Below are positions 22,278 to 52,497 of a DNA stretch of 64,000 bases, in pieces. Each line of letters opens with the position of its first letter. Positions within the stretch are counted from its first letter, which is position 1. Made by a program: the position numbers and the translations under genes. A model generated the notes under the pieces. It was not told the origin of the DNA, searched no databases, and saw only the letters and a program-made list of their open reading frames with translations. The DNA is from Aneurinibacillus soli (GTDB taxonomy: Bacteria; Bacillota; Bacilli; Aneurinibacillales; Aneurinibacillaceae). The stretch lies in assembly GCF_002355375.1 (NCBI RefSeq), contig NZ_AP017312.1, positions 885,001 through 949,000 on the forward strand. The letters run 5' to 3'.

Positions 22278-23144
22278 GTGTTACTCACGCTTTTCCTGGG
22301 GAAATGGCGCCGAAAATCACAAACTCCCAGGGAGAATGACAACCAGCATCTGTATCAATTAATTGAACGAATACACCAGGGAGAGGATGAGTGGCGCAAT
22401 GAGCTTCTGGAGCAGTATCGGCCCTTTATCGGCACAGCTGTTTCCAAAGTATGCAAGCGATACATTCATCAGTCACAAGATGAGGAATTCAGCATTGGAC
22501 TTGAAGCATTCAATGAAGCGATTACCGGGTATTCCGTAGAGAAAGGAAGCTCGTTCTTGTCTTTCGCTGATCTGGTTATCCGTCGTCGTGTGATTGATTT
22601 TATTCGGAAAAACAGGCAGCGAATATCGATGGTGTCGCTTGATGAATCGGCAGACCCACAAGCTCCTGAATATAATGTATGGGACGTGCAGGCAGCGGTA
22701 GAGCGGCATCAGCTTGAGCAGGAGGCTGAGTATCGGCGGGAAGAAATCTTTCATTACCGCGAACGGTTGCAGCAGTTCGAGATCGAACTCGAAGATCTAC
22801 CGGACTATACACCGCAGCATGCAGACGCCCGCATCAATATGATCCACATTGCTCGCATAATTGCCGAGAAACCGGAACTCCGGCAGTCCTTTCTGGAGAA
22901 GAAAAAAATCCCGGTTAAGTATCTCCTGCAATACATCACCTTCTCGCGCAAGACCGTAGAACGGAACCGCAATTATATTGTGGCCATTACTGTACTTTTT
23001 ATTGAGGATTATCAGTATTTACGCTCCTACATTCAGACAGAGGATATAGAGGGAAAGGGGGAGCCGCGCGATGAAGAAGGGCATCGTGCTCAAGCGGCAG
23101 GATCATTACTGGATTGTGATGACGCCGGACGGGGGATTTCATAG
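22278..23144 (+). CDS. sigI: RNA polymerase sigma factor SigI
   Basis: 288 residues. The order and motifs fit SigI: a region-2-like part with YRPFIGTAVSKVCKRYI, EFSIGLEAFNEAITGY and FLSFADLVIRRRVIDFIRKN (about 45-115), then the SigI-specific C-terminal domain with KTVERNRNYIVAI (about 220-235). In Bacillus it responds to heat and envelope stress, and in clostridia to polysaccharides. I prefer the GTG at 22278, six nt after GAGGTG; the GTG at 22269 is the alternative. The 3' end overlaps rsgI by 74 nt in another frame, and the C-terminal ~25 residues in the overlap look unlike the family. Confidence 0.92.
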   Translation: MLLTLFLGKWRRKSQTPRENDNQHLYQLIERIHQGEDEWRNELLEQYRPFIGTAVSKVCKRYIHQSQDEEFSIGLEAFNEAITGYSVEKGSSFLSFADLVIRRRVIDFIRKNRQRISMVSLDESADPQAPEYNVWDVQAAVERHQLEQEAEYRREEIFHYRERLQQFEIELEDLPDYTPQHADARINMIHIARIIAEKPELRQSFLEKKKIPVKYLLQYITFSRKTVERNRNYIVAITVLFIEDYQYLRSYIQTEDIEGKGEPRDEEGHRAQAAGSLLDCDDAGRGIS

Positions 23145-24258
23145 AATTCCTCCTGACAGCCGTGAAGTGATAGAAGGGGAAGAAATTGAATTTGCCCTGC
23201 CTCAGGAACAACGGGTTCGGACTGTGCGTCGCCCGTGGAGAAATGTAACATATGCAGCGGCGGCTTGCCTGCTACTTTTGTTATCCGGGATACCGCTTTG
23301 GAACATGTTGTTTACGACTGCATATGCCGCTGTTTCCATTGATATTAATCCGAGTTTTGAACTCGAGGTCAACAAACAGTATCAGGTGACGGATCTGCAT
23401 GCGCTAAATAAGGAAGCAGAGGCACTTGCCCCTTCAATTGAGTGGAAGAACAGGGAACTGACCACTGTAACATCTGACATTATTCAAGATGCCCGGCAGA
23501 GTGGTTTCTTGAAGCGGAATCAAGATATTCTTATTGTGCCGGTGGGACTTGATAGTGCGGAAGCGTCTCAGGAAGTGCTTCAGAAGATTGAACAACACGC
23601 ATCTATACTGGCCAAGCAGGGGGGCGAAGGTGTAACCGTTACTCTTATGGAGAGTACAAAGGAAGCCCGCCAGCAAGCGCAGAAGGAAGGAATGTCTGTT
23701 GGGAAATACGCGCTGTATGATTCCGTGCGCCACATGGACCATCCTTTTTCAGTTGACCAGATCAAGAAGTTGAGCATTACCGAGATTTCATCGGCGATTG
23801 GCGGGATAGACCGTGTGCCAAATACAAAGCGTTACACGAATCAGCCCGCACGCAAGCCAGATGCCACACCGAAACCAGCTGCACAACCGGAAGTGAAGAG
23901 TATGAAGTCGACTGTTACCCAGCAGACACGCAAGGAAGCAAAAGCGGATACAAGAAAGAGACATCCAGTATATTCCAAAAAGTCAGATCATACGTCTGCT
24001 ACGCAAGAAAGCGGTCCGAAGACAAAAGTTATTCCGAAAGCTGTGACGGAAGAGACGAAGCATAAGGCGGAAGCGCAAGCGAAGAGAGAATCGGGGCGTA
24101 CAGAGGAAGAGAAAAAGTACAAGTCAGATTACGGCCAGCTTCAGCAGAGACAGAATCAAGACGGGCAGGGTGTTGATGAAGACGAGAGGAAGCGTAATGA
24201 CGCTTACAAAAAAGAGCGGGAGAACAAACAGCCCAATTTCTCAGCGCCGTTTCAATAA
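23071..24258 (+). CDS. rsgI: Anti-sigma-I factor RsgI
   Basis: 395 residues. The N-terminal cytosolic domain (1-55, KKGIVLKRQDHYWIVMTPDG) binds SigI in the family. A single membrane segment follows (about 66-90), then the conserved external domain opening with AAVSIDINPSFELEVNK. The last ~150 residues are Lys/Glu/Gln-rich and low in complexity, in place of the carbohydrate-binding modules seen in clostridial RsgI. GGGGGAG lies within the end of sigI, so production of the two is coupled. A terminator follows at once. Confidence 0.92.
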   Translation: MKKGIVLKRQDHYWIVMTPDGGFHRIPPDSREVIEGEEIEFALPQEQRVRTVRRPWRNVTYAAAACLLLLLSGIPLWNMLFTTAYAAVSIDINPSFELEVNKQYQVTDLHALNKEAEALAPSIEWKNRELTTVTSDIIQDARQSGFLKRNQDILIVPVGLDSAEASQEVLQKIEQHASILAKQGGEGVTVTLMESTKEARQQAQKEGMSVGKYALYDSVRHMDHPFSVDQIKKLSITEISSAIGGIDRVPNTKRYTNQPARKPDATPKPAAQPEVKSMKSTVTQQTRKEAKADTRKRHPVYSKKSDHTSATQESGPKTKVIPKAVTEETKHKAEAQAKRESGRTEEEKKYKSDYGQLQQRQNQDGQGVDEDERKRNDAYKKERENKQPNFSAPFQ

Positions 24259-24271
24259 GGATAACTAGACA

Positions 24272-24308
24272 AACAGCAGCTTGCATCGGGCAGGCTGCTG
24301 TTTTTTTC
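24272..24308 (+). terminator. Terminator of sigI-rsgI
   Basis: AACAGCAGC and GGCTGCTGTT pair, then a run of T's. Confidence 0.9.
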
Positions 24309-24384
24309 GCTAATAATTGCCTGTCTGAAGGACATGCTTAGAATAAGGCCAAAAGCATGCTTGCTGGGTTAGGTATTGCTCAAC

Positions 24385-24607
24385 GTGTGGTGGAGGAGCG
24401 GGATCGGGCGGGGCCTCGTCACTTCGGTACGCTTACAGAGAAGTTAGGACTGTCCGCTCCAGATGCCAGGCGAACTCGCCCACAAAAGATGCCTGCGATG
24501 TATTTGCACAGAAGCATTGTGGGCAAAAGTCCGTTCGCCTGGCCCCTTCCGCTGGGGAGTCGCGTACAGGCGTTCCGTTGCCCCGCCCGATCCCGCTCCT
24601 AGCACAC
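24385..24607 (+). repeat. Structured palindromic element, copy A
   Basis: About 223 bp. The outer arms 24394-24414 and 24580-24600 are perfect 21-bp inverted repeats (GGAGCGGGATCGGGC...). Inner stems AGGCGAAC/GTTCGCCT (24468, 24533) and GCCCACAA/TTGTGGGC (24478, 24517) are also perfect. No protein gene fits the region. It aligns with the reverse complement of copy B over much of its length, with paired changes in the stems. Confidence 0.8.
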
Positions 24608-24749
24608 TTTGGTTAAACACCATCAAGCAATATCAAGACGTTGAGCTTTGCTATGCAGGTAAAAAAATAAGGAAGCTGTCTTTCAAAAATTCAGTGTCTA
24701 TCGAGCAAATCCATTCTGGCGACGAGAGTCTTTTTATAAACCGAAACGT

Positions 24750-24970
24750 TGTGCGGGGAGTGGGAGAAGGGAGGAGCAAGAGAGTGCCTGTACGTGCCTA
24801 CTCAGCGTAGGGAGAACGGCGAACGGGCCTTTGCCCGCAATCCTTCGGCGAATCAGCAGCGTAGGCGTTTCTTTGCGGGCGAGTTCGCCGGGCTCCCGGA
24901 GCGGACAGCTGCCGCTTCCTTGCAAGCGTACCGAAGCGAACGGCTCATCCCTTCGCCCACTCCCTTATCA
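24750..24970 (-). repeat. Structured palindromic element, copy B (inverted)
   Basis: About 220 bp in the opposite orientation to copy A. Outer arms 24756-24772 and 24948-24964 pair with one mismatch in 17. Inner stems CGGCGAAC/GTTCGCCG (24817, 24883) and GCCCGCAA/TTGCGGGC (24833, 24873) match those of copy A with compensating changes. Both copies share the core with CTTCGGTACGCTT. The rest of 24971-25250 shows no gene. Confidence 0.8.
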
Positions 24971-25327
24971 CCATACGTTCTCGATCCACAAAAAAAGCCG
25001 CCCCGCTCGCTTATGGGACAGCCCTCTTTCTGAAATAAGGACACATAGTAGGAATGTACTTCTTGCGGAGCGTAACCGAGTGACAGAGATCTTCTCGTTT
25101 CCGCTTCGCCACTATACTTTGTACAGCCACAATTCCCAAAGTCCTTCATTAACATACCGGCACATAACACTTTCCAAACAATTTTGTTTAAAAAATATGG
25201 CTATATGTCTTTCCTTGATTTTCAACTATGATATACTATATATTAAAAGATGGATTTGTACAATTTGTTTACAATACGTGGCACTCTAATGCCATGTTTA
25301 CCTTGTATAACTGGAGGGAATTCAACT

Positions 25328-45116: not shown

Positions 45117-45254
45117 CGAAGTTGCGAAAAAAAACAGGAAAATGTGTCTAATTTTCGAACATTATCCAGAAAAACTTCTTTTTTTCGCCAATATTCGATA
45201 GAATGAGAGCGTTGTTAAGAGAAAGAGAAAAATAAAGGTGTGAAGTTACAAAAA

Positions 45255-45375
45255 TTTACTTGCCGAATTCACGTACTGTGAAGCGGGGGGAAAGTATTAT
45301 TTTTGGGGTGAATCTGCGTATGCGGACAGAGACCTTATCCTCTGAACCCGTCAACTAACCTCGTAGGCTCGAAGG
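45255..45375 (+). promoter_or_regulatory. Cyclic-di-AMP (ydaO-yuaA) riboswitch 1
   Basis: Conserved blocks of the family in order: GGGGGGAAA (45285), GGGGTGAATCTGCG (45305) and GAACCCGTCAACTAACCTCG (45344), closing with TAGGC. It lies directly before a cell-wall hydrolase gene, the classic location. No T-run follows and the ribosome-binding site is immediately downstream, so control is probably at translation or at a site I do not see. Confidence 0.85.
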
Positions 45376-45388
45376 GAGTAAATCGTTC

Positions 45389-51957: not shown

Positions 51958-52135
51958 AACAAAAAAACCATCCTCAACAGGCGGTCTATGACCTCCTTCG
52001 CTTTAGCCGACGAAGTTAGCTGACGGGTAGGATGGCGAAAGAGTATTCTCATCCTTCTCTGCAAAAGCAGAGATTAACCCCAAAAGATTGGTTCCTCCGT
52101 TCCCGGCGCGCCGGGACTAGGCCGAATATGCGGTT
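51958..52135 (-). promoter_or_regulatory. Cyclic-di-AMP (ydaO-yuaA) riboswitch 2, before kdp
   Basis: On the minus strand the blocks run GGAACGGAGGAACC, GGGGTTAATCTCTGC and ACCCGTCAGCTAACTTCGTC, as in the family. After the aptamer comes AGGATGG and a run of T's (51961-51967). AGGATGG can pair with CCATCCT (52028-52034) inside the aptamer region, a terminator-type expression platform. High cyclic di-AMP should stop transcription into kdpFABC. Confidence 0.85.
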
Positions 52136-52345
52136 GCTTCATGTGCTTAATTATACGAGTGGGTTGGAATAAAAATAAAACCGTGAATATAGCGAAAATA
52201 GGAACAAAAGCGACGATTTATGCGGGAAAATAAGGATAAAATACTCACAATCGAATCAACACTCGTTTTTTTAACGTTTTTTATCACTTTACAAAGTTCT
52301 AGTATCGGGAGTAAGATACTACCATCATTTTAATACATATATAGT

Positions 52346-52482
52346 TAGAGCGCTGAGTCCCGGATAGGGAACGGGGGAACCAACTGTACAAGGTAGATAT
52401 TTGTACACGGGGTGAATCGCGGCAGAGCCGTGTAGGGCGACTTTTCACGTCCGAATCCGACAGCTAACCTCGTAAGCGTGTG
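52346..52482 (+). promoter_or_regulatory. Cyclic-di-AMP (ydaO-yuaA) riboswitch 3
   Basis: GGGAACGGGGGAACC (52368), CACGGGGTGAATCGCGG (52406) and CCGAATCCGACAGCTAACCT (52451) followed by CGTAAGC match the family well. The ribosome-binding site of the DUF2294 gene follows at once, so the switch may act on translation. It is divergent from riboswitch 2, about 210 nt away. Confidence 0.87.
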
Positions 52483-52497
52483 AGAGGAGTTAGAGAA

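Follow-up and report, generated by a model that had tools for sequence, protein, structure and literature searches.

Palindromic repeat units of Aneurinibacillus soli and other Bacilli: a gene-less family probably moved by IS1182 transposases and aimed at terminator hairpins

The closest described counterparts of the element treated here are staphylococcal mobile elements that enter DNA hairpins. IS1272 is reported to replace inverted repeats, i.e., stem-loops, without duplicating its target, and the model drawn for it includes alternative pathways in which the stem-loop or its loop is duplicated (PMC5678879). Terminators are named among the targets of IS1272 and TnSha1 (PMC4923244). Here we describe a repeat family of Bacilli that is probably a non-autonomous, MITE-type palindromic family aimed at terminators, with IS1182 transposases as its movers, a reading drawn from comparison of sequences.

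We highlight a copy in the window, the whole stretch of 64,000 nucleotides analyzed from the A. soli chromosome (Table 1). It belongs to a noncoding repeat type of about 740 bp, and its left end has decayed. Alignment of 30 copies with their flanks set the boundaries and extended homology far past positions 24385-24970, to which the earlier note had confined itself. A full element comprises, in order, a left terminal hairpin with a T run, half A, a middle region of about 150 bp, an inverted half B and a right terminal hairpin. The two inverted palindromes of the earlier note, together with their arms and the quoted stem changes, are present in the sequence; they are real inverted copies of about 210 bp (68 nt at 78% between the halves), but instead of two separate elements of about 220 bp they make up a single element, each being one half of it, with a middle and terminal hairpins in addition. 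Both palindromes fold better than all 200 of their shuffles (z -7.5 for half A and -3.2 for half B), and the listed ORFs that overlap the window copy reach at most 152 aa.

Table 1. Parts of the element in the window, with the neighboring hairpin (positions are those of the window).
Feature	Position	Strand	Basis or remark
Whole element	24361..25022	+	nhmmer, 733 bits; profile positions 48-720 of 723; left terminal hairpin decayed
Terminator-like hairpin, outside the element	24274..24307	+	behind upstream ORF 23071-24258; inverted repeat 24262-24284/24290-24312, then T run
Half A, long imperfect palindrome	24394..24600	+	inverted-repeat arms, fold
Arms of half A	24394-24414/24580-24600		perfect 21-bp inverted repeat within a 39-nt match at 82%
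Conserved core of half A	24426..24568		covariance model R1, 165 bits
Unique middle	24601..24755	+	conserved in aligned copies; about 150 bp
Half B, inverted diverged copy of half A	24756..24964	-	inverted-repeat arms, fold
Arms of half B	24756-24777/24943-24964		22 nt at 91%
Conserved core of half B	24789..24932	-	covariance model R1, 153 bits
Right terminal hairpin	24990..25027	+	A run, stem, T run; terminator-like, degenerate here; read from alignment with other copies

Elsewhere in the window, a weak reverse-strand match to the left part of the element lies just downstream of it (25057-25132; E 7e-4, 14.8 bits). There are also three c-di-AMP riboswitch matches (45251-45383, 51990-52133 and 52341-52493), of which two are near neighbors on opposite strands, and a dense tRNA cluster at 26-2088 with one Bacillaceae-1 RNA match at 318-385.

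The element is abundant in its own genome, which is a single contig of 4.12 Mb. Half A alone returned at least 61 matches there (the best 40 of 177 candidates being scored), and a profile built from 10 full-length copies delineated 77 clusters in 783,030 bp of this genome and 47 in 656,928 bp of that of a sister species, fragments and internally deleted copies included, the stretches being those that surround copies and predicted orthologous sites. At about 270-740 bp and in this number, without coding capacity, the copies have the format of MITEs. The covariance-model search that the earlier note proposed, run with a model of the 143-bp core built from 59 sequences (R1), found copies well beyond the window site: at least 150 core matches in the A. 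soli genome, where 150 of 1258 candidates were scored and all matched. Among the other six genomes of the genus (G001-G006), the sister species (G006) has 91 (150 candidates scored), G005 six and G003 two, and G001, G002 and G004 gave no R1 match. Further afield, the core was found in 24 of 250 sampled Bacilli genomes from four families, six of them in the family of A. soli and 18 in three others (12 in f23, 1 in f24 and 5 in f30), and a phylum-wide sample of 249 returned only the window's own genome (0 of 248 others); samples of more than 40 genomes were searched with stricter filters, at which weak matches are lost. Twelve of the core-positive genomes have 3 to 52 matches each (150 candidates scored). 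Units occur singly or as inverted pairs, with many internal deletions and half-half hybrids. An extended pattern of the unit ends marks 64 sites in A. soli, 53 in the sister species and none in the five further genomes of the genus, and each of the 20 sites inspected of these 117 (10 per genome) proved to be a profile match, a partial element or a fragment of an end. The element had no match in plasmid, phage or viral collections. The 78 ORFs around 20 distant copies included three pairs of mutual matches and no gene shared by three or more loci, and among the open-licence papers listed we found no title or abstract describing the element. A 190-bp repeat of the B. subtilis genome may be a relative.

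An IS110-family element (NF033542, 207 bits, cut-off 140) occupies the same spot of half B (profile about 552-559) in five A. soli copies, two of them seen only in part (1004304-1005940, 2049141-2050768, 2915173-2916800, after 3610317 and after 3617943). At 3213864-3214728 an insertion of about 865 bp in the middle region contains broken pieces, one of them similar to an IS1595 transposase though short of the cut-off (47.5 bits against 75).

The copies are not placed at random with respect to genes. Convergent gene pairs hold 48 of 107 clusters, against a baseline of 150 of 1096 other pairs (odds ratio 5.1, p 2e-13); the remaining clusters lie between codirectional genes (29 and 23) or divergent genes (7). 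These 107 are clusters with a score of at least 100 and neighbors on both sides, eight clusters inside predicted ORFs being excluded, and the gene calls come from rough long-ORF heuristics. Since convergent pairs carry terminators anyway, this bias alone is no proof of targeting.

Comparison with the sister species, which shares the gene order of A. soli (most long blocks at 82-93% identity), permits a closer view of individual sites. Of 49 orthologous sites compared, 27 are occupied in both genomes, in five of which the sister species retains only a 49-68-bp fragment, and 22 are species-specific (16 in A. soli only, 6 in the sister species only). The site of the window copy is empty in the sister species and carries a strong terminator-like hairpin instead, and a clear hairpin was seen by eye in 7 of 16 empty alleles inspected. 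Conversely, the sister-species element at 655166-655890 stands where A. soli has an 18-bp perfect palindrome, with a precision of about 3 bp. A second element (1865633-1866357) occupies the place of an A. soli hairpin of which the basal AGAAG..CTTCT is kept; this site is less clean, as about 0.5 kb more on its right is present in the sister species only. These two sites suggest that the element replaced a terminator hairpin, once precisely and once less cleanly. Precision is lacking at other sites, one of which (3018324) shows no hairpin. Target duplications of at least 5 bp were absent from all 37 copies of the two species with both ends, and direct repeats of whole hairpins flank 2 of 110 of their clusters compared with 7 of 1089 in the background.

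A different pattern is found in distant relatives. In G240 and G204 the element is a single unit of about 270 bp that starts near TCAGNNTGYWGACAAAG and ends with its inverse, and the same hairpin, different at each site, stands outside both ends. Of 63 distant copies, 26 lie between long direct repeats, compared with 1 of 743 cross-pairings above the threshold, in a search devised after the unit flanks had been read. The 63 are a subset of the copies (19 of 25 from G240, 9 of 12 from G204, 3 of 31 from G054, and so on) that leaves aside the second match of L249 and of L234 as well as some loci of G003, G004 and G005. By genome, the repeats flank 16 of 19 copies in G240, 6 of 9 in G204, 3 of 3 in G054 and 1 of 5 in G107, the last being weak and not a hairpin; they flank none in G036 (5 copies), G050 (4), G212 (5), G185 (4), G008 (5), G195 (1), G005 (2) or G007 (1). 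Hairpin duplication around single-palindrome copies is accordingly seen in 25 of 31 cases in G240, G204 and G054 together, i.e., in 3 of the 12 genomes tested. The earlier note had suggested a check for target-site duplications; duplicated hairpins were seen in these three genomes, and no duplications in A. soli and its sister species. That note had also considered a mobile repeat family, a proposal that gains support from copy number, from the species-specific occupancy of orthologous sites and from these duplications in relatives.

A link to a transposase comes from G204. Among the matches listed for this genome, the unit-end pattern occurs in pairs about 1.54 kb apart, and the 11 pairs read delimit ten elements of 1.53-1.55 kb and one of 2.76 kb with, by eye, a second transposase-like frame. 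Like the units, they end in the 17-bp sequence TCAGCCTGTAGACAAAG or one close to it, and for one of them the frame was identified as that of an IS1182 transposase (491 bits with NF033551, cut-off 270). A duplicated hairpin abuts both ends in 8 of the 11. Among the other three, L324 and L325 lie about 6 kb apart, and the hairpin to the left of the former is the same as that to the right of the latter, a pattern as after rearrangement between the two copies; the single cross-pairing above threshold among 110 fits this case. L328 has no matching hairpin pair. In A. soli and its sister species, the unit ends GAGGCTGTCTCAAAAG / GAGGCTGTCYCAAAAGC agree over 14-16 bp with one end of an IS1182 group in G005 and less well with its other end, so that these units share an end with an autonomous element of another species only. 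The ends of that group look, by eye, foldable into terminator-like hairpins, and its four copies showed no duplication. In the 493-aa IS1182 group of G005, the copies L199-L201 appear to lie within the loops of hairpins and to have a portion of the loop repeated on either side of them.

The A. soli genome itself gave no IS1182 match and its sister species remnants only, which leaves the A. soli dimers without a resident mobilizer. IS1182 does not track the element within the genus either, as G001 and G004 hold 9 and 13 IS1182 matches and no core match. Moreover, unit ends differ between A. soli and G204 or G240 though the cores are homologous. Given the end match in G005, the missing duplications and the lack of IS1182 in A. 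soli, the best reading for this lineage is replacement insertion by an IS1182 element since lost; we infer that such an element once moved the A. soli dimers.

We propose the following model. The basic unit is an imperfect palindrome of about 270 bp, a "half-element" with the conserved 143-bp core, whose high-copy form in the genus of A. soli is an inverted pair of about 740 bp with terminator-like hairpin ends. IS1182-family transposases, presumably acting in trans, would recognize the unit ends and insert the units at stem-loops, above all intrinsic terminators. In the relatives G204, G240 and G054 the target hairpin stands in duplicate on either side of the insertion, and in the lineage of A. 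soli the end hairpins of the element itself would replace it, as for IS1272. Insertion at terminators would make copies gather behind stop codons, where their end hairpins, which probably terminate transcription, may take over this function.

The earlier note had placed a structured RNA under selection beside the mobile repeat, and the element could be pictured as a transcribed, structured noncoding RNA family, selected for its fold and spread as a by-product. The strong folds would suit this, and paired changes are indeed frequent. On consensus folds, two-sided Watson-Crick changes amount to 243 cells in 84 copies of half A and 156 in 69 of half B (shuffle means 66 and 55), and on hand-named helices, which for A1 include a CCCACAA/TTGTGGG helix absent from the automatic structure, the 59 core sequences have 87 (shuffle mean 34.9; none of 500 shuffles as high). 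A pair quoted as changing from A-T to G-C does covary (30 AU, 27 GC and 2 unpaired). The 25 matches from other genomes, in an alignment fitted to the covariance model and hence leaning towards structure, have 205 two-sided cells, above all 500 shuffles (mean 65.5). The core also carries unpaired motifs conserved across families, namely GAAG..ACTGTCCGCT, AAAA and CTTCCGCT.

A selected RNA should show more G.U, and compensatory change did not proceed through such pairs. Only 5 of 1337 cells in the 59 core sequences are G.U and 101 are unpaired; uncompensated stem changes in further copies are what the earlier note had set beforehand as speaking against selection for the fold. The 25 foreign matches have 5 G.U and 28 unpaired cells of 570. 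Standard pair types are not above those of shuffles in the core sequences (17 versus 17.1), and the 51 types of the 25-match set (versus 47.1) were reached by 50 of 500 shuffles. One-sided changes favor A.C over G.U, 264 versus 168 in half A and 214 versus 147 in half B (478 versus 315 in total; the p of 8e-9 presumes independent cells, a condition that does not hold here), an excess of which mutation bias could be the source of a part. Comparison of each copy with its own reverse complement reveals no clear G.U preference (GT 208/AC 288 and GT 104/AC 178; GT 62/AC 50 in 22 distant copies). RNAalifold gave few pairs, and Rfam no match to the element. On the G.U and A.C counts we rejected a structured RNA, which we regard as very unlikely. 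What keeps the palindrome seems to act on the DNA itself, whether it is selection on active copies, template-switch repair or the two together; the element behaves as DNA and not as an RNA gene.

The units might instead be REP/BIME-like, i.e., palindromes moved by a Y1 tyrosine transposase (RAYT), often in inverted pairs and without target duplication. They do occur singly or in inverted pairs, like REP doublets, and Y1 transposase matches exist in A. soli (two) and its sister species (one). However, the 3.4-kb loci around those Y1 genes contain no element match, Y1 genes do not track the element (12 matches in G001, which has no core), the units exceed the 20-40 bp palindromes of that class, and the duplicated hairpins, like the end that units and IS1182 have in common in G204, point elsewhere; we give this origin little credence. 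Least convincing, and in our view quite improbable, is a passive repeat whose two-sided changes come from template-switch repair of quasi-palindromes and which spreads by recombination without a dedicated mobilizer. This fits two-sided changes without G.U intermediates and the many deletions and hybrids but by itself yields no hairpin target duplication, hairpin replacement or species-specific insertion; it is disfavored for the spread and may explain part of the covariation.

Altogether, an IS1182-moved, terminator-directed MITE family remains our preferred reading. We speculate, tentatively and with more doubt than conviction, that the 143-bp core, with its unpaired motifs and mostly Watson-Crick covariation in four families of Bacilli, is a functional cruciform or hairpin DNA recognized by a protein and set on different IS1182 ends in each host; it could then form a class of its own, as a structured DNA parasite or as an element used by the host that makes terminators into mobile insulators. 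In this family nature provides many copies that illustrate a group of transposases seemingly guided by the shape of DNA and not by its sequence, and hairpin duplication in some genomes next to the replacement suggested in others makes the mechanism proposed for IS1272 testable. A mobile element could in this way rebuild terminators across a genome. Covariation in a repeat, in turn, need not mean RNA, and counting G.U against A.C helps to separate the two.

Other repeats share traits with the family. REP/BIME sequences with their RAYT are likewise gene-less palindromes, single or paired, of 20-40 bp, with a GTAG tag and a Y1 transposase, in contrast to the units of about 270 bp and the IS1182 link found here (PMC3733652). 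The bcr1 repeat of the Bacillus cereus group is also a chromosomal stem-loop repeat of Bacillales, of 147-167 bp in the table of PMC2267715, and is set apart from our element by its description, not by sequence. QMITE2 harbors an IS1111 element (PMC10969869), much as half B does an IS110-family element. SPRITE, BOX and RUP of pneumococcus are likewise multi-copy, intergenic and MITE-like with strong folds and an enrichment between convergent genes; SPRITE is terminator-like, as are the ends of our element. They are typically shorter than 200 bp, the ends of BOX and RUP resemble ISSpn2 and IS630-Spn1, and the sections of PMC3049150 drawn on describe no hairpin target duplication, unlike the units of G204, G240 and G054. 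The nearest likeness is to IS1272 and TnSha1, staphylococcal members of the IS1182 family, in hairpin targets that are often terminators, in replacement without target duplication and in the transposase itself (PMC5678879; PMC4923244). Those elements carry a transposase or a cargo gene, whereas the units here are gene-less and palindromic (PMC5678879; PMC4923244). The duplicated hairpins of G204, G240 and G054 differ from IS1272 and TnSha1 and correspond to an alternative pathway of the model in PMC5678879, and the arrangement of L199-L201 corresponds to the third pathway drawn there.
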